Below, one piece after another: positions 12,194 through 23,419 of a stretch of DNA of 43,318 nucleotides (the stretch's first letter is position 1; each line of letters starts with the position of its first letter). A model generated the notes under the pieces. The model had not been told where the DNA came from. It saw only the letters and a program-made list of their open reading frames with translations, and searched no databases. The stretch is taken from contig NTKA01000012.1 of assembly GCA_002456975.1 (NCBI GenBank), forward strand, positions 1 through 43,318. Direction: 5' to 3'. Origin of the DNA: Halieaceae bacterium MED-G27. Its GTDB lineage: Bacteria > Pseudomonadota > Gammaproteobacteria > Pseudomonadales > Halieaceae. A program made the position numbers and the translations under genes.

Positions 12194-12829
12194 TTAATGG
12201 TTCCCGTTAAGCGACAACACGAGAAGCTCTCTATTTTCACCTAACCCAGGCACGTTTAATTGGATACGTTGTCTAAGGTGAACCCATTCCGGTAAGCGCG
12301 CAAGTTCTGACTCTGTGTGTTGCGATTTCATAGCGTACCAACATCCATTAGGCGACAGCATATGTCTAGTCGAACAACACATATCAGACAGGTCTGCAAA
12401 TGCTCTGCTAATAATCCCGTCAACAGTCGACGCTAGCTCGCAGGCCTCGACCCTCATTTCATGAATACAGACATTGGTTAATTCGAGCTTGGCCTTCACT
12501 TGCGCCAAAAATCTGGTTTTCTTGCCATTACTGTCGACAAGATCAATTCGTTTATGAGGAAAGTAAATGGCTAAGGGTATCCCCGGGAAGCCGCCTCCTG
12601 TGCCGACATCACACAAAGAACCCTCAGGAATGTGTGGCACCACTGACAAACTGTCCAACAGATGCCTAATCACCACTTCCGAGGGTGTTTTTGTGGCTGT
12701 CAGGTTATAAGCGCGGTTCCATTTGAGCAGCAATTCAAAATACTGCATCAATTGTGGTTGTTTGCTTTGATCTAAAGCTAGCGTATCTAGCCCTTTTGCC
12801 AACAGCGTTTCAACTGCTGTCTCAGCCAT
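12194..12829 (-). CDS. rsmG: 16S rRNA (guanine527-N7)-methyltransferase
   Basis: RsmG (formerly GidB) methylates G527 of 16S rRNA using S-adenosylmethionine. The protein shows the SAM-binding motif [19 protein letters not shown] and the upstream [13 protein letters not shown] stretch typical of the family. I favour the ATG at 12829 ([10 protein letters not shown], 211 residues), which overlaps the end of mnmG by 8 bases; an in-frame GTG at 12844 would add five residues. It sits between mnmG and parA, the classic gid-par arrangement. Confidence 0.95.
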
Positions 12830-14723
12830 TGGCCACAGCCGCACGAGACTCTGTGCTTTGCTTCTTCACATAGACAAGCAGTAAAGAAAGGGCAGCGGGT
12901 GTGATACCTGGAATACGGCTGGCTCTAGCAATATTGGCTGGGCGCGCTTCGTTGAGTTTTTGACAAATTTCATTCGATAAACCAACGACGTTGTCATAAT
13001 TAAAGTCTGAGGGAATTTTCATCTCCTCGTGTCGCTTCAAACGATCAATTTCTTCCTGTTGTCGAGCTATATACCCCTCATATTTGATTTGAGTTTCGAC
13101 GTACTCTGCCGCGTCAGCAGACAGTACAGATGAACGTGTCTCAGCCAGCATTACATCAGCATATGTGAGTTCAGGTCTTTTGATGAGATCGAGCATGGAG
13201 TACTCACGTATCAGGGGTGATTTAAGTTTCTGCGCGAGCGTCTCTGCTGTCTTAGAACTTGGTTGCACATAGGTCGAGGCCAAATACACCAGCTCGCTAT
13301 CAATCTGCTGACGCTTTTCTTCAAACCACTGCCAATGATGATCATCGACAAGACGAAGCTCCCTGCCAACCGGCGTCAAACGCTGATCTGCATTATCCTG
13401 TCGAAGTTGCAGCCGGTACTCAGCTCGGGACGTAAACATCCGATAAGGCTCTTTAGTTCCCAAGGACACCAGATCGTCTATCAATACTCCGATATACGCT
13501 TCATCGCGCCGCGGCTCCCAAAATGGTAAGTCGGCGCATAAACGAGCAGCATTGATACCCGCTAATAAACCTTGTGCTGCAGCCTCTTCATAGCCCGTAG
13601 TGCCGTTGATTTGACCCGCGAAAAATAATCCTGTCATTTGAGAAGTTTGCAAACTGTGGCTCAAATCTCGAGGATCAAAATAATCGTACTCGATAGCATA
13701 GCCCGGACGCGTGATGTGAGCATTTTCTAAACCCGCGATCGAGCGAACAAAATTCTCTTGCACATCAAACGGCAAGGAAGTCGAAATCCCATTAGGATAG
13801 AGCTCTGAGGTATTCAGTCCCTCTGGCTCTAAAAATATCTGATGAGATGACTTATCGGCAAAGCGATGAATTTTGTCTTCAATACTAGGACAATATCGAG
13901 GTCCTGTGCCTTCGATCACGCCACTGAACATAGGTGATCGGTCTAAGCCATCGCGAATAAACTCATGAGTCTCTTCATTAGTATTAGTCATCCAACAACA
14001 AACCTGCTGTGGACACTGCGCGATGCTGCCCCGCTGCGACATAACCGGCCGGGGATCGTCTCCCCACTGCTCTTCCATGACGGAAAAATCAACCGAATTA
14101 CCGTCAATTCGGGGAGGTGTGCCGGTTTTTAAGCGATCAGTTCGCGGACATATTTCTTTCAAGCGATTAGCAAGCGTAGTAACCGCCGCGTCACCCATGC
14201 GACCGCCCGCTCGATTCTCCAAGCCGATATGAATCTTTCCGTTGAGAAAAGTGCCTGCCGTCAACACAACAGACACCGCTGTGAATCGAATACCACTGGC
14301 GGTAACCACACCAGCTACCCTGTCTCTATCGAGAAGAATGTCATCGACAGCATCTTGGAACACCGACAATCCAAACTGTGACATCAGTGTCTGTTGGATG
14401 GCATTTCTATATAGAGTGCGATCGGCCTGTGCTCTGGTAGCTCTCACAGCAGGACCTTTTCTTGCATTCAATACACGAAACTGAATACCTGCCTGATCAG
14501 TCGCTGCCGCCATGACACCACCAAGCGCGTCGATCTCCCGAACTAAATGACTTTTGCCGATGCCACCGATTGCTGGATTACAGGACATCTGGCCCAAGGT
14601 GTCGATAGCATGAGTTACGAGCAGCGTGTTCGCGCCCGCTCGCGCAGAAGCGAGCGCCGCTTCAGTACCAGCATGACCGCCGCCGACGACGATAACGTCG
14701 AACTGTCTGCTTCTATTTGTCAC
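12822..14723 (-). CDS. mnmG: tRNA uridine-5-carboxymethylaminomethyl synthesis enzyme, FAD-binding
   Basis: MnmG (GidA) works with MnmE to install the cmnm5 group on U34 of certain tRNAs. The 633-residue protein has the FAD-binding Rossmann motif [12 protein letters not shown] near residues 12-22, then [19 protein letters not shown], and the C-terminal helical MnmE- and tRNA-contact domain with [15 protein letters not shown] and [12 protein letters not shown]. The start is GTG at 14723 with CTGGAG seven bases upstream. Its partner gene mnmE is next upstream on the same strand, but separated by 609 bases holding an origin-like element. The + strand in mnmG is C-rich, unlike the G-rich + strand of mnmE. 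Confidence 0.97.
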
Positions 14724-14754
14724 TGGAAATCTCCAGATAACTTATGGGCGGCGG

Positions 14755-14760
14755 AGTATA
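14755..14760 (-). promoter_or_regulatory. mnmG: Possible -10 element of mnmG
   Basis: TATACT on the minus strand lies 32 bases upstream of the mnmG GTG and matches five of six -10 positions. No good -35 hexamer is visible 16-18 bases further upstream (CTTAAG at 18). In E. coli the mnmG promoter also sits between oriC and the gene, and its transcription affects initiation. Confidence 0.35.
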
Positions 14761-14984
14761 CGCGCTAAGTCGACGCAACTTAAGACCTCAAATGTATGAT
14801 CGACATAGCGCCCCTGTTACGCGACATCTCACGATATTGGTCAATGACACATAAATAATCGAGCCGTTTTGGCTACGCGAACCGACAACCACTGATCAAG
14901 ACAATCCTGATGTCATGGTCAACAAATGGAAAGATAAACTTACTCGAGCGTAGTGTTTCCAACGTGTTTATTGAAAGTAGGTTA

Positions 14985-15135
14985 ATCGTTAAGAACCTTA
15001 TTAAATAAATATATTATCTTAGAGAAGATAATTAGATGTTGTTGTTATTAGGGACGCTCGATTGTGTGGATAGATCAAGGAAAGGTAGTAAGCAGCGCAC
15101 TTAGCGTCCACTTGAACCGTGTGCGTATATATCGA
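14985..15135. other. oriC: Candidate replication origin (E. coli-type oriC core)
   Basis: An AT-rich stretch (about 14985-15050) is followed by TTATTA (15045-15050), a 14-base spacer GGGACGCTCGATTG, and TGTGGATAG (15065-15073), one mismatch from the DnaA box TGTGGATAA. In E. coli oriC the right 13-mer ends in TTATTAG and is followed after the same 14-base distance by box R1, TGTGGATAA. Read on the minus strand this is a DnaA box, a GC-richer spacer, then TAATAACAACAACAT, which resembles box plus DnaA-trio unwinding elements. The AT-rich side faces mnmG, as in E. coli. Plus-strand G/C skew changes sign across this gap. Only one GATC (15073-15076) lies in the core. Further DnaA boxes are poor. 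Origin activity itself is inference. Confidence 0.7.
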
Positions 15136-15332
15136 TAAGGTCTGCGTAGAGACAGTGCAAAAGGTGAGGACTGTTTCTAAGGGTTCTTCGGCGTCGCCGT
15201 GTTTTAGTGGTTATCTAGAATTTGTTTACAACTAATCCTCAGCTTACTGCGACCTTGTTGTTTTTGATGTGAAGTTTGTGGTTTCTAATACTCACGCAGT
15301 AACTGTTCTGTGGAGAATATGTGCAAAGACCG
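15136..15332. other. Gene-free remainder of the mnmG-mnmE gap
   Basis: I find no convincing open frame or RNA here. TGTGGAGAA at 15309-15317 is one mismatch from a DnaA box, and TTATCTAGA near 15211 is two mismatches away. These may belong to the origin region or be chance. No T-tract terminator for mnmE, which ends at 15333 on the minus strand, is apparent. Confidence 0.4.
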
Positions 15333-16676
15333 TTATTTTCCTATGCAAAAGGAGCTGAAAATTTGTCCTAGAATATCGTCACTTGTGATAACTCCTGTGA
15401 GTTCATCGAGTTGTGTTTGAACATTTTTTAAATCTTCAGACAGTAATTCCGCAGCCTGATGACTGCTGAAGTTCGTTAGTGATGTCATAAGAGTTGTTTT
15501 AGCCTCGTTCAAAGCAGTCACATGTCGATGGCGAGCACTAAACCGAGAGTTAGTCGTTGAGGATATCAATGCAGTCTCAGTAATGAGTTGCTGCAATTGA
15601 TCAAGCCCCTCCCCGGTGAGCGTGGAGATAGCAACAGTCGGAATTTCCGAATCCTTCGAAATGCCAGGATCACGTCCAGAAAGATCAATTTTATTAATAA
15701 CTCGGATGACGCGGCTTGGCGTTGCGATCTCGATTGGCGCGCCCGCCGCTTGAGCGGAATCGTCCTGTATTTCTAATATTAAGTCGGCGTTAGTTGCGGC
15801 ATTTTTTGCTCGTTGAATGCCTTCGACTTCGATCTCGTCGGTTGTCTCTCGCAGTCCGGCAGTATCAACAAGATCAACCCCTAAACCGTTAATCATGACG
15901 CTGCGAATGACAATATCCCGCGTGGTGCCTGCTTTCCTGGTAACAATAGCGACCTCCTCTTTTGCCAGCGCATTGAGTAGGCTACTTTTACCCGCATTTG
16001 GAGCACCCATCAGCGCAATATTAATGCCCTGACTCAGCTGTTGAGCGTTTGCTACTTCTTCTGTTAATTCGCGCAGGGTGTCGAGTAGTTTTTGAAGGCG
16101 ATCGACGACGTTGTGACGCGAAATGACATCGATGTCTTCTTCAGGAAAGTCGATAGATGCTTCGGTAAGGGCTCTCAGTTCTGTTAATTGCAGTGACAAC
16201 TCGCTGACGATCGCAGAAAACGAACCACTGAGCGATGAAGTGGCGAGGTGCGCAGCTGTCTCAGTTTCTGCTGCGATCAAGTCAGCAATCGCTTCAGCCT
16301 GAAGTAGGTCTATTTTTTCGTTGTGAAATGCACGCTCGGAGAATTCCCCTGGATTGGCAAGTCTTGCACCTCTGTTAAGACAGTCATTTAGCACGAAGCT
16401 TAAAACATATTGACCACCGTGGCCCTGCAGTTCGACGACATCTTCACCAGTAAAGGAATTTGGCGCGGGAAAGTAAAGGGTAAGACCTGAATCTAGGACG
16501 GTTCCATTTGTCGATTTGAAAGTGGTGAGGTGCGCATATCGAGCCTGCAGCGTTTTGCCTGTTAGCGCTTCTGCAATGGATCTCGCCTTTGGCCCACTCA
16601 ACCGAATGACGCCGATTGCACCATTACCACTAGCAGTGGCTATGGCCGCAATCGTGTCTGTTTCGAGCGCTCTCAT
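15333..16676 (-). CDS. mnmE: tRNA uridine-5-carboxymethylaminomethyl GTPase
   Basis: MnmE (TrmE) is the GTPase partner of MnmG in U34 modification of tRNA. The 447-residue protein has the formyl-THF-binding N-terminal domain (MRALETDTIAAIATASGNGA), a G domain with GAPNAGKSSLLNAL, the KAGTTRDI switch, DTAGLRE and the NKID base-recognition motif, and the essential C-terminal CIGK with Cys444. It follows yidC by 14 bases. Its plus-strand composition is G-rich although the gene is on minus, which suggests it lies on the lagging strand. Confidence 0.97.
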   Translation of the reverse strand: MRALETDTIAAIATASGNGAIGVIRLSGPKARSIAEALTGKTLQARYAHLTTFKSTNGTVLDSGLTLYFPAPNSFTGEDVVELQGHGGQYVLSFVLNDCLNRGARLANPGEFSERAFHNEKIDLLQAEAIADLIAAETETAAHLATSSLSGSFSAIVSELSLQLTELRALTEASIDFPEEDIDVISRHNVVDRLQKLLDTLRELTEEVANAQQLSQGINIALMGAPNAGKSSLLNALAKEEVAIVTRKAGTTRDIVIRSVMINGLGVDLVDTAGLRETTDEIEVEGIQRAKNAATNADLILEIQDDSAQAAGAPIEIATPSRVIRVINKIDLSGRDPGISKDSEIPTVAISTLTGEGLDQLQQLITETALISSTTNSRFSARHRHVTALNEAKTTLMTSLTNFSSHQAAELLSEDLKNVQTQLDELTGVITSDDILGQIFSSFCIGK

Positions 16677-19167: not shown

Positions 19168-19205
19168 GGCGAGACCTTGATCTCTCTTATACTAAAGGGG
19201 GCGCG

Positions 19206-19234
19206 ATTATAGGGGCGGAGTCCCTGATAGGCAA
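19206..19234 (-). promoter_or_regulatory. rpmH: Sigma70-type promoter of rpmH-rnpA
   Basis: On the minus strand, TTGCCT (19234-19229) and a perfect TATAAT (19211-19206) are 17 bases apart. Predicted transcription starts near 19199, about 32 bases before the rpmH ATG. The layout fits a strong promoter for ribosomal protein expression. Confidence 0.7.
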
Positions 19235-19379
19235 GACTCCAAGGAAATCCATTTGTTGCGGCCGACAAGATAGATTTTGTAAGTTTTTTCCATGTGAGCA
19301 ATTACTTACTCAATAACACCGGCACTAGAACCTTCATATGTGGTCTTTTACCCTTGTGTTTGCGAGTTTGGCACAACCC

Positions 19380-19530
19380 AATAACAAGTTATACACAGCC
19401 TATACACACCAAAGCCGTGCGCAAGGTGGTTTTCTCATTGTTTTTGTAGTAAGCGGCCATAGCTACAGTAAACTATTGATTTTTAACAACTATATATTTG
19501 TTGAAAGTTGATTAATTATGTGGATAACTA
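19380..19530. other. DnaA-box cluster upstream of dnaA
   Basis: TTATACACA at 19389-19397 is a perfect DnaA box of the TTATNCACA form. CTATACACA at 19400-19408 is one mismatch away, 11 bases further, so on the same helix face. TGTGGATAA at 19519-19527 is a perfect box on the other strand. An AT-rich stretch (about 19470-19520) lies between them. This is where Pseudomonas-type origins are placed, and also where DnaA autoregulates its gene. I cannot tell which applies; the skew evidence favours the mnmG-mnmE gap as the origin. Confidence 0.65.
19501..19528 (+). promoter_or_regulatory. dnaA: Possible dnaA promoter overlapped by a DnaA box
   Basis: TTGAAA at 19501-19506 and GATAAC at 19523-19528 are 16 bases apart, and the second hexamer overlaps the perfect DnaA box at 19519-19527. 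This would give a leader of about 160 bases and direct repression by DnaA. Both hexamers are only moderate matches. Confidence 0.35.
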
Positions 19531-19632
19531 TGCATCTCGACACGGTTTCGTCTTCTTAGTGAACGTTGGTGCGGTTTCAGTCGTGACGATTAAGCATAAC
19601 GAAGCGAGCATAAGTCCAATAACGATCATAAA

Positions 19633-19652
19633 GCGGCGTCGGGCTTCGCCGC
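19633..19652 (+). other. GC-rich hairpin in the dnaA leader
   Basis: GCGGCG (19633-19638) can pair with CGCCGC (19647-19652) around an 8-base loop. It ends 40 bases before the dnaA ATG, too far to mask the GGAG ribosome site directly. No T-tract follows, so it is not a classic terminator. Confidence 0.4.
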
Positions 19653-19692
19653 GATAAGGCCACAATACCAGCAGTGTAGGGCGGAGACTTGC

Positions 19693-21186
19693 ATGTCCAA
19701 TGGGTACAGCACAGCATCGAGTAACGTTAACAACGAAGCAGGCGACCTGCTGTGGGAGCAGTGTCTTAAACGCCTAAGATCAGCAGTACCCGAAGCACAA
19801 TTCAACACCTGGATACGCCCGCTTCAAGTAGTGGCAGACCAGTCTGATTTTGTTCTGGGTGCTCCTAACCGATTTATAAGAGATTTTGTTGAAGAGAAGT
19901 TCGGTGAGTCGATAGGGTTCTGTTTGAGAGATGCCTCTAACTCACAAATTGATTCTGCTGCTTTTATCGTGCAAGACGCCGGGTCACCAAGCGCCATTAT
20001 GCCGACGTTTCAGTCTTCGCCAATAGCAGGCGGGAAGGTGTCATCGGTGCCGAACCCGATTGCCGATGACGATGTCGCGGTTAGAACGTTGAGATCTGCG
20101 CCGCAAGTGATAGCGGGGACCACAGTGTCCAGCGCGCGAGACAATCGTTCCGTTGTGCCGTCCCATCAACATAACCTAGTCGATAATTATACGTTTTCAA
20201 ACTTCGTGGAGGGTAAGAGTAACCAGCTGGCGCTGGCAGCGGCGCAGCAGGTAGCAAAAAGCCCAGGTGATGCATATAACCCCCTGTTTTTATACGGGGG
20301 AGTTGGTCTTGGTAAGACGCATTTGATGCACGCGGTTGGGAACGCGCTTCGTTTACAAAAGCCCGATGCGAAGATCGTATACCTGCACAGCGAGCGGTTT
20401 GTTGCTGACATGGTGAAAGCTTTGCAGCTTAATGCTATCAACGACTTCAAGCGCTACTATCGCTCTGTTGATGCGCTGTTAATTGACGACATACAGTTTT
20501 TTGCAAACAAAGACCGATCACAGGAAGAGTTTTTTCACACTTTCAATGCGTTACTAGAAGGTGGTCAACAGATGATTTTGACTTGTGATCGGTATCCGAA
20601 AGAAATAGACGGCGTAGAGGAGCGGTTAAAGAGCCGCTTTGGCTGGGGCCTCACTGTTGCGGTTGAACCCCCTGAGCTGGAAACCCGGGTCGCGATTCTC
20701 AAGAAGAAATCTGAGCAGGCTGGTATCGATTTGTCGAATGATGCAGCGTTTTTCATAGCACAACGCATTCGGTCAAATGTCAGAGAGCTAGAGGGGGCAT
20801 TGAAGCGTGTCATCGCTAGCGCCAACTTTACTGGCAGGCCTTTTGACATTGATCTGATTAAAGAGAGCCTAAAAGACCTACTTGCACTTCAAGACAAGCA
20901 GGTATCGCTGGAAAACATCAAGAAAATCGTGGCTGACTATTATAAAATTAAGGTTGCTGATTTGATGTCAAAACGCCGTAATCGCTCTGTGGCGAGACCT
21001 AGGCAAATGGCTATGGCACTGGCGAAGGAGCTGACAAATCATTCATTGCCAGAGATTGGTGATTCATTTGGTGGTAGAGATCACACGACAGTGCTTCACG
21101 CATGTCGTAAGATAGTGGAATTGCGAGAGACAACATCCGATATTCGAGAAGATTATAAAAATTTGTTGCGCTCGTTAACGACCTAG
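19693..21186 (+). CDS. dnaA: Chromosomal replication initiator protein DnaA
   Basis: DnaA binds DnaA boxes and opens the origin. The 497-residue protein has domain I ([20 protein letters not shown] and NTWIRPL), a variable linker (about 90-160), the AAA+ domain with Walker [11 protein letters not shown] near residue 200 and Walker [10 protein letters not shown], and DNA-binding domain IV with the signature [19 protein letters not shown]. The start ATG at 19693 is preceded by GGAG. dnaN follows after 13 bases, forming the dnaA-dnaN-recF-gyrB cluster. DnaA boxes upstream suggest autoregulation. Confidence 0.98.
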
Positions 21187-22330: not shown

Positions 22331-23419
22331 TTGTTATCGAGCCTTTCGATAAATCAGCTTCGAAACTTTGTGTCCTTGGAGTTGTCCCTGTCTCCGGGGA
22401 TGACTGTGTTTACTGGCGCTAACGGCGCGGGGAAGACAACTATTCTCGATGCGGTACACCTCATCAGCACTGGACGACCGTTCAGTACAACCAACATCAG
22501 GTCAGTCATTCAGTCAACAAAAGACGAATGCTCGGTGGTTGCCGGGATTAGAAAGGGTGTCGCTGCGACGGTGGTTGGTGTAAGCCGCAATCGGCGCGGA
22601 GCAGGACAAGCGAAAGTTGGGGGCGTTCATGTTAAGTCGCTTTCCCAGCTGGCAATCGAGCTACCCTGCGTGTTGGTGACATCAAATGTGTTGTCTGCGT
22701 TGTGGGAAGGTCCTGAGGCGAGGAGGAGGGTGGTTGATCAACTAATGTTCCACGTGGAACAACGCCGTTTTCTTTCACACACCCAGAACTATGCGCGAGC
22801 GATAAAGCAGCGCAATGCTGCGCTGCGGCATGGTATCCTAGAGGCGAGCGATAGTTGGGTAGAGGCTATTGTTGAGTCTGGTGAGGCGGTTACCGCGATG
22901 CGGCGCGAAGGAGTGGAGGCGCTGGCTGGTGAGTTGAGGGCTTTGCTCGATGAAATGGGGGTTTGTCTCCCCGATTGGCAGTTAGCGTTTCATCAAGGCT
23001 GGCACGATGACAAAGGCCTAGAGGAGGCGCTGTCCTCAGTAAAAGAGAGAGATGTTCAGCGCGGTTTCACAAGTGTGGGCCCACATCGCGCGGATCTTGT
23101 GGTTAGCACTGTTTACGGGTTGGCATCTGATTCGTTTTCCAGAGGGCAGATGAAGGTGTTTATGGCGGCTCTAAAACTCGCACAAGGCCGCCTACAATGC
23201 CGTCAAAGCGATACAGCGCCCATCTTTTTGGTCGATGATGTGGCGGCTGAATTGGATGATATACATGCTGAGGCTGTGTTTCGGGTTTTGGATGAGAGTC
23301 AGCAGCAGGTGTTAGCAACGATGGTAGACACTCATCAGTTGAGGAAGGCGAGCCTGAATAGCTTGTCGGGTGTGTTCCACGTGGAACACTCAGGTACTGC
23401 ATCACTTACTGCAGGATAA
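22331..23419 (+). CDS. recF: DNA replication and repair protein RecF
   Basis: RecF is an SMC-like ATPase that helps load RecA at single-strand gaps. The 362-residue protein has Walker A GANGAGKTT at residues 29-37, the signature-like SRGQMKVFMAALKLAQ, and Walker B FLVDDVAAELDD. The start is TTG at 22331, the only plausible initiation codon after an in-frame stop at 22310-22312 (the dnaN stop), and the ribosome site is weak, so translation may depend on coupling to dnaN. Two perfect parS palindromes lie within the coding sequence and encode FHVEQ and FHVEH. The last 15-20 residues, around the second site, extend beyond the conserved core. Confidence 0.95.
   Translation: MLSSLSINQLRNFVSLELSLSPGMTVFTGANGAGKTTILDAVHLISTGRPFSTTNIRSVIQSTKDECSVVAGIRKGVAATVVGVSRNRRGAGQAKVGGVHVKSLSQLAIELPCVLVTSNVLSALWEGPEARRRVVDQLMFHVEQRRFLSHTQNYARAIKQRNAALRHGILEASDSWVEAIVESGEAVTAMRREGVEALAGELRALLDEMGVCLPDWQLAFHQGWHDDKGLEEALSSVKERDVQRGFTSVGPHRADLVVSTVYGLASDSFSRGQMKVFMAALKLAQGRLQCRQSDTAPIFLVDDVAAELDDIHAEAVFRVLDESQQQVLATMVDTHQLRKASLNSLSGVFHVEHSGTASLTAG
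22746..22761. promoter_or_regulatory. parS: parS centromere site 1 (within recF)
   Basis: TGTTCCACGTGGAACA is a perfect 16-base palindrome of the parS consensus used by chromosomal ParB proteins. It lies in the middle of recF, about 7.7 kb from the origin candidate in the mnmG-mnmE gap and 11 kb from parB. Confidence 0.93.
23373..23388. promoter_or_regulatory. parS: parS centromere site 2 (near the 3' end of recF)
   Basis: This is a second exact copy of TGTTCCACGTGGAACA, 627 bases from the first. Here the palindrome extends one base on each side (GTG...CAC, 23372-23389). It lies in the variable C-terminal coding tail of recF, 59 bases before the gyrB start. Confidence 0.93.

Follow-up and report, generated by a model that had tools for sequence, protein, structure and literature searches.

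A predicted chromosomal replication origin in the gap between mnmG and mnmE of a Halieaceae genome

The mnmG-mnmE gap and its core element

Where does replication of the chromosome begin in a genome in which an origin-like element lies beside mnmG and dnaA is only a few kilobases away? The question is raised by the window analyzed here, that is, the whole stretch of 43,318 nucleotides from Halieaceae bacterium MED-G27, which is an entire contig of a 2.02-Mb, 68-contig MAG that is 75% complete. On the plus strand its genes follow in the order parA, rsmG, mnmG, a gap, mnmE, yidC, the rnpA and rpmH region (rpmH being assigned by its position in the gene order), a second gap, dnaA, dnaN, recF, and gyrB. 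The gene calls agree with the initial annotation, which had placed mnmE on the right flank of the element and dnaA 4.6 kb away (start at 19693); the rpmH-dnaA gap lies 4.4 kb to the right of the mnmG-mnmE gap. We propose, with a probability of roughly 0.87, that the mnmG-mnmE gap serves this genome as its chromosomal origin of replication (oriC), because of its conservation, low duplex stability, position, skew switch, and E. coli-like core. The features to the left of yidC are as follows.

12822..14723, minus strand: mnmG (gidA), transcribed away from the proposed origin (TIGR00136)
14724..15332: 609-bp mnmG-mnmE gap, proposed oriC (from the gene calls; it contains the minimum of the cumulative GC skew of the contig, at 14907)
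14985..15034: predicted AT-rich DNA unwinding element (minimum of duplex stability; TATAT and AGATA blocks partly conserved in 15 genus gaps)
15035..15050, minus strand: DnaA-trio-like tract TAATAACAACAACATC (its columns rank with the best conserved of the gap in the alignment of 15 genus sequences)
15051..15064: 14-base spacer (13 to 17 bases in relatives)
15065..15073, minus strand: predicted DnaA box CTATCCACA, counterpart of E. coli R1 (conserved in the genus alignment)
15309..15317, minus strand: second, weaker predicted DnaA box TTCTCCACA, near mnmE (box scan)
15333..16676, minus strand: mnmE, transcribed towards the proposed origin (NF003661)

On the plus strand the tract ends in TTATTA (15045-15050), and the spacer is followed by a box that reads TGTGGATAG on the plus strand and CTATCCACA on the minus strand, with one mismatch to TTATCCACA; the AT-rich side of this core faces mnmG. 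The oriC of E. coli K-12 (L208) consists of TTATTA, 14 bases, and TGTGGATAA, with its AT-rich side likewise towards mnmG, and the order, spacing, and orientation claimed at the outset are thus matched exactly. The arrangement is beyond chance: TTATTA-N14-TGTGGATA with zero or one mismatch occurred once in the window and never in 100 first-order Markov shuffles of it, and with up to two mismatches there was one occurrence against 0.19 expected. DnaA boxes as such were not enriched across the window (21 matches to TTATNCACA with at most one mismatch, 29.85 expected). Within the mnmG-mnmE gap, two boxes with at most one mismatch to TTATCCACA were found against 0.14 expected, a number reached by 3 of 200 shuffles (P = 0.015). 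Against the origin reading counts the fact that two such boxes are fewer than many relatives have; in many genus mates the right half of the gap holds more of them.

Read on the minus strand from 15050 down to 15035, the sequence beyond the spacer is TAATAACAACAACATC, which gives the triplets TAA TAA CAA CAA CAT, conserved in the genus and with a central A throughout. Only the first two meet the strict form of the DnaA-trio consensus; triplets 3 to 5 start with C. The resemblance to unwinding repeats noted earlier is therefore borne out by the central A of all five triplets and, in the strict form, by TAA TAA.

Duplex stability was calculated from nearest-neighbour energies. Within the window it is lowest in the 50-bp segment starting at 14999 and in the 100-bp segment starting at 14951, both of which adjoin the core; the second least stable segments start at 19469 (50 bp) and 19432 (100 bp), in the rpmH-dnaA gap.

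By analogy with E. coli and B. subtilis, DnaA, as DnaA-ATP, would attach to the box at 15065-15073 and to the weaker ones on its right, and a DnaA filament would extend over the 14-base spacer onto the TAATAACAACAAC strand. The AT-rich segment at 14985-15034 would then melt and helicases would load there, so that forks could leave both ways, with mnmG copied co-directionally and mnmE, yidC, and rnpA met head-on. To the right of dnaA, recF contains two perfect matches to the parS consensus TGTTCCACGTGGAACA, at 22746-22761 and 23373-23388, lying 7.7 kb and 8.3 kb away from the proposed origin; parS sites with up to two mismatches were absent from 100 shuffles.

Conservation and strand bias in the genus and family

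We extracted 29 gaps from the genus and aligned the 15 closest, the window included, separately. MnmE is only 57 to 60% identical to that of the nearest relatives, so conservation outside genes is informative. The TATAT and AGATA blocks, GATGTTGTTGTTATTA, the spacer, and TGTGGATA-like boxes all lined up. A position weight matrix of the core was built from 11 of the 15 aligned gaps, among them the window (the other four were unfit for the extraction pattern), and both strands of 43 loci of the family, each 12 to 43 kb long, were scanned with it (43 of the 140 family genomes searched). The best match of the whole locus fell in the mnmG-mnmE gap, in the same orientation, in all 23 genus loci, which represent 23 of the 57 genomes of the genus and of which 14 lay outside the matrix. 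Among 20 loci from other genera of the family, 13 had their best match on the mnm side, counting L166, whose stretch lacks mnmG.

A strict rule was then applied, requiring at least 8 of 9 positions in TTGTTATTA, at least 7 of 9 in TGTGGATAA, and a spacer of 13 to 17 bases. The strict core was present on the mnm side in 20 of the 23 genus loci (the exceptions being L153, L154, and L156) and on the dnaA side in none; the initial annotation had named a lack of conservation in close relatives as the finding that would speak against it, and the core is found in the same gap in these 20. The remaining 20 family loci divided into 7 with the core on the mnm side, none on the dnaA side, and 13 with neither, 3 of the 20 stretches being without dnaA. 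As background over all 83 loci studied, the strict rule was satisfied by 5 of 4,734 other 600-bp segments and, when the same regions were read on the opposite strand, in 0 of 226 cases. With a looser score (at least 15 of 18), 11 of the 23 genus loci would hold both sites, the dnaA-side part being mostly a perfect box; since 5.8% of opposite strands also pass this threshold, we did not count by it. The spacer was 13 or 14 bases long in most near relatives and up to 17 elsewhere, and a 14-base spacing can no longer be regarded as a special tie to E. coli.

The skew of two single-contig relatives was followed locally, over 200 kb around the gap (100 kb to each side) and not over whole chromosomes. 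The minimum lay inside the gap in G002 (602028, gap 602015-602581) and 157 bp outside it, within mnmG, in G004 (2482358); in both, dnaA was about 5 kb from the minimum. All 23 genus loci had a negative skew at third codon positions (GC3) in mnmG-rsmG-parA and a positive one in mnmE-yidC-rnpA; being related by descent, they should not be counted as 23 separate tests. The two groups of genes are on one strand, and any coding bias is therefore common to both sides. Only within the genus do left and right differ clearly: of the 17 other family loci in which the left side could be measured, 7 had a negative GC3 skew there, so that beyond the genus this side frequently fails to be negative. At fourfold sites in the window alone, single genes were too noisy to reveal the switch. 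The suggestion that an mnmG-linked origin has been kept beside a complete rpmH-dnaA block is thus one on which conservation, duplex stability, and GC skew all agree.

The rpmH-dnaA gap and the site of the core across the order

The second gap, whose features are given below, also has to be considered as a place where replication might start.

19181..19692: rpmH-dnaA gap, a second AT-rich dip with boxes and without the TTGTTATTA core (from stability and 11 genus sequences; strict core in 0 of 23)
19389..19408, plus strand: predicted boxes TTATACACA and CTATACACA, upstream of dnaA (box scan)
19519..19527, minus strand: perfect DnaA box TTATCCACA, upstream of dnaA (sequence match)
19693..21186, plus strand: dnaA (TIGR00362)

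The box pair, an A/T-rich stretch, and the perfect TTATCCACA are conserved in the genus (11 sequences, one of them anchored at a partial dnaA match), and the perfect box was on the minus strand in all 40 family loci that hold this gap. That the rpmH-dnaA gap is also conserved and AT-rich, with a better box, counts against an origin on the mnm side. Both a skew switch and the strict core were looked for at this gap in the genus loci and neither was there. It is probably a dnaA control region or a relic origin, most likely serves the control of dnaA and not as a start site, and perhaps assists the assembly of DnaA at the origin.

An origin divided between the two gaps, with unwinding at mnmG-mnmE and helper boxes at rpmH-dnaA looped across 4.4 kb, would be compatible with the proposed one and is, in our estimate, unlikely but worth keeping in mind. 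In its favour, conservation is seen in both gaps, and the two segments of lowest duplex stability in the window fall one in each. DnaA boxes upstream of dnaA are, however, also expected from dnaA autoregulation, and in none of the 83 loci did the strict core occur in the two gaps together. Origins in two parts have been described, mostly with dnaA in the middle, but they are reported to reach up to about 2 kb (PMC4285127).

That replication starts in the rpmH-dnaA gap as in Pseudomonas, the element at mnmG-mnmE being a relic or a control region of mnmG, is considerably less probable. The perfect box in 40 of 40 family loci, the second AT-rich dip, and the conserved A/T-rich stretch would suit such an origin, and the oriC of P. 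aeruginosa is described as adjoining dnaA and dnaN (PMC3642087). Yet in all 23 genus loci, as in the two single-contig relatives, the skew switches at the mnmG gap rather than at dnaA, and the dnaA side lacks the strict core in all 23. The reading of the block as just a conserved mnmG promoter region with an accidental likeness to oriC is very improbable, since, for all that the block lies upstream of mnmG, its one promoter-like match is on the other strand and at chance level (1.4 expected), the core stays with mnmE in three Halieaceae loci (L165, L166, and L175) in which mnmG is more than 5 kb from it or outside the fetched stretch, and it appears before dnaA in other families. Where mnmG and mnmE were apart in L223, L246, and L248, the core was with mnmG.

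The preferred reading, an origin in the mnmG-mnmE gap, was then placed in the context of the order. The exact core pattern was found in 28 of 390 order genomes and its reversed control in 13, so that the presence of the pattern says little by itself. Placed by tblastn, 6 of the 28 loci adjoined mnmG, 14 were in the rnpA-dnaA region or by dnaA, and 8 were at neither or could not be placed among the genes tried, which gave a first indication of cores at both sites. We assembled 40 further loci of 27 other families, picked by dnaA or by a pattern match with coordinates and hence not a random sample. Eleven of them had the strict core on the mnm side and 8 on the dnaA side; none had it at both, and 21 had it at neither. 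Perfect cores (18 of 18 positions) stood before dnaA in families f29 and f37 and adjoined mnmG in f8, f17, and f42. On a four-protein tree (70 rows, quick method), the site of the core changed at least three times among the 34 labelled rows.

The GC3 skew of the block between the two sites was positive in all 36 measurable mnm-side loci, as it was in every one of the 25 mnm-side rows labelled on the tree. It was negative in 5 of the 8 dnaA-side loci. The other three, L228 and L242 (f37) and L219 (f20), have the core before dnaA and yet a positive block and so depart from the trend, which would be accounted for if the origin had moved recently. Loci without a strict core were also mostly positive (32 of 35, with 3 negative), and the phylogenetically independent pairs numbered three, two in the expected direction and one without a difference (p = 0.5). 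As most loci are positive whatever their label and there are only three such pairs, a link between core site and skew is unproven, and the association is suggestive only. Two genomes did not fit a simple rule that the core follows the skew: G204, with its core at dnaA, had its minimum over 200 kb 29 kb away and, roughly 1 kb from that core, no more than a shallow local dip, and G231, Pseudomonas-like by its clamp, had no usable minimum near either gap.

Two further arrangements bear on the two sites. In L221 (G159, family f21), both gaps share a 38-bp block with 89% identity (E = 1.8e-8) that includes the box and looks like a possible duplicate of an origin core; only 1 of the 22 genomes whose gaps were compared was so clear. 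We call f21 Pseudomonas-like because its sliding clamp best matched PDB 6ams, presumably the P. aeruginosa protein. In three f41 loci (L231, L232, and L247), the rnpA-yidC-mnmE block is inverted and runs in the direction of dnaA, away from mnmG; such a block would run with the fork and therefore fits an origin on the mnmG side.

Across the order, then, the core may alternate between the mnmG-mnmE and rpmH-dnaA gaps, about 4.5 kb apart, without ever occupying both, the strand bias of the intervening genes may tend to follow it, and the Halieaceae would be on the mnm side, with the dnaA box region as a core-less conserved relic or partner. We hold this picture tentatively, at somewhat under even odds.

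Comparison with known systems

The proposed origin provides a predicted replication start for a marine group represented mostly by MAGs in the records met here, and the position of the origin is needed for estimates of growth rate from read coverage. The same unwinding core in one of two nearby gaps is also a natural series in which the long-standing problem of how origins move relative to dnaA lends itself to a direct test. Among the matches listed in open-licence PMC papers, there was no account of origins in Halieaceae or of a core that switches from one of these gaps to the other. A query for a paper on the Coxiella origin likewise listed none.

With E. coli oriC the window shares mnmG as a neighbour and its orientation, the AT-rich side, TTATTA, the 14 bases, and the TGTGGATA box, in the same order and at the same spacing. 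It differs in having mnmE and not mioC on the right flank and dnaA only 4.6 kb off. The gap has just 3 GATC sites and no copy, within two mismatches, of the E. coli oriC 13-mer GATCTNTTNTTTT. SeqA was found in 0 of 29 genomes, including the 75% complete genome of the window, and among 14 control genomes only E. coli matched; sequestration in the E. coli manner is therefore unlikely. The label E. coli-type that had been given to the element accordingly suits its order, spacing, and mnmG side, and not its sparse GATC sites, the lack of 13-mers, or the SeqA result. DciA (PF05258) was found in 2 of 29 genomes and in 0 of the 19 of the genus of the window, with a model that may miss divergent forms.

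The block shares its gene order with the Pseudomonas rpmH-dnaA region (f21 loci), as well as the boxes in the rpmH-dnaA gap, but here both the strand bias and the position of the trio-like core favour the mnmG-mnmE gap. The remark that two origin-like regions flanking this block had been discussed for Pseudomonas can be traced in print as far as a mention of two autonomously replicating elements in P. aeruginosa (Gao 2015; PMC4403523), and no further.

The core resembles the BUS/DnaA-trio arrangement, at the level of sequence, in its box, its short spacer (14 here), and at least three following triplets with a central A; it departs from it in triplets 3 to 5, which begin with C and fall outside the strict consensus. 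A survey of such elements gives a spacer peak of 10 to 13 with a limit of 16, writes the trio as 3'-GAT-5', and rates the E. coli score as relatively weak (PMC8287927). For gammaBOriS, the hallmarks stated are TAATAATAA trio motifs and TTCTGTGGATA boxes (PMC7174414).

With the mnmG-adjacent gammaproteobacterial origins of DoriC, the window shares the rule of a location on the gidA side; the anatomy of the core and its conservation are described here. For some Gammaproteobacteria with two predicted origins, DoriC has taken in just the candidate next to gidA (PMC6323995). This kind of origin is already known, and the window is a well-supported further example of it.
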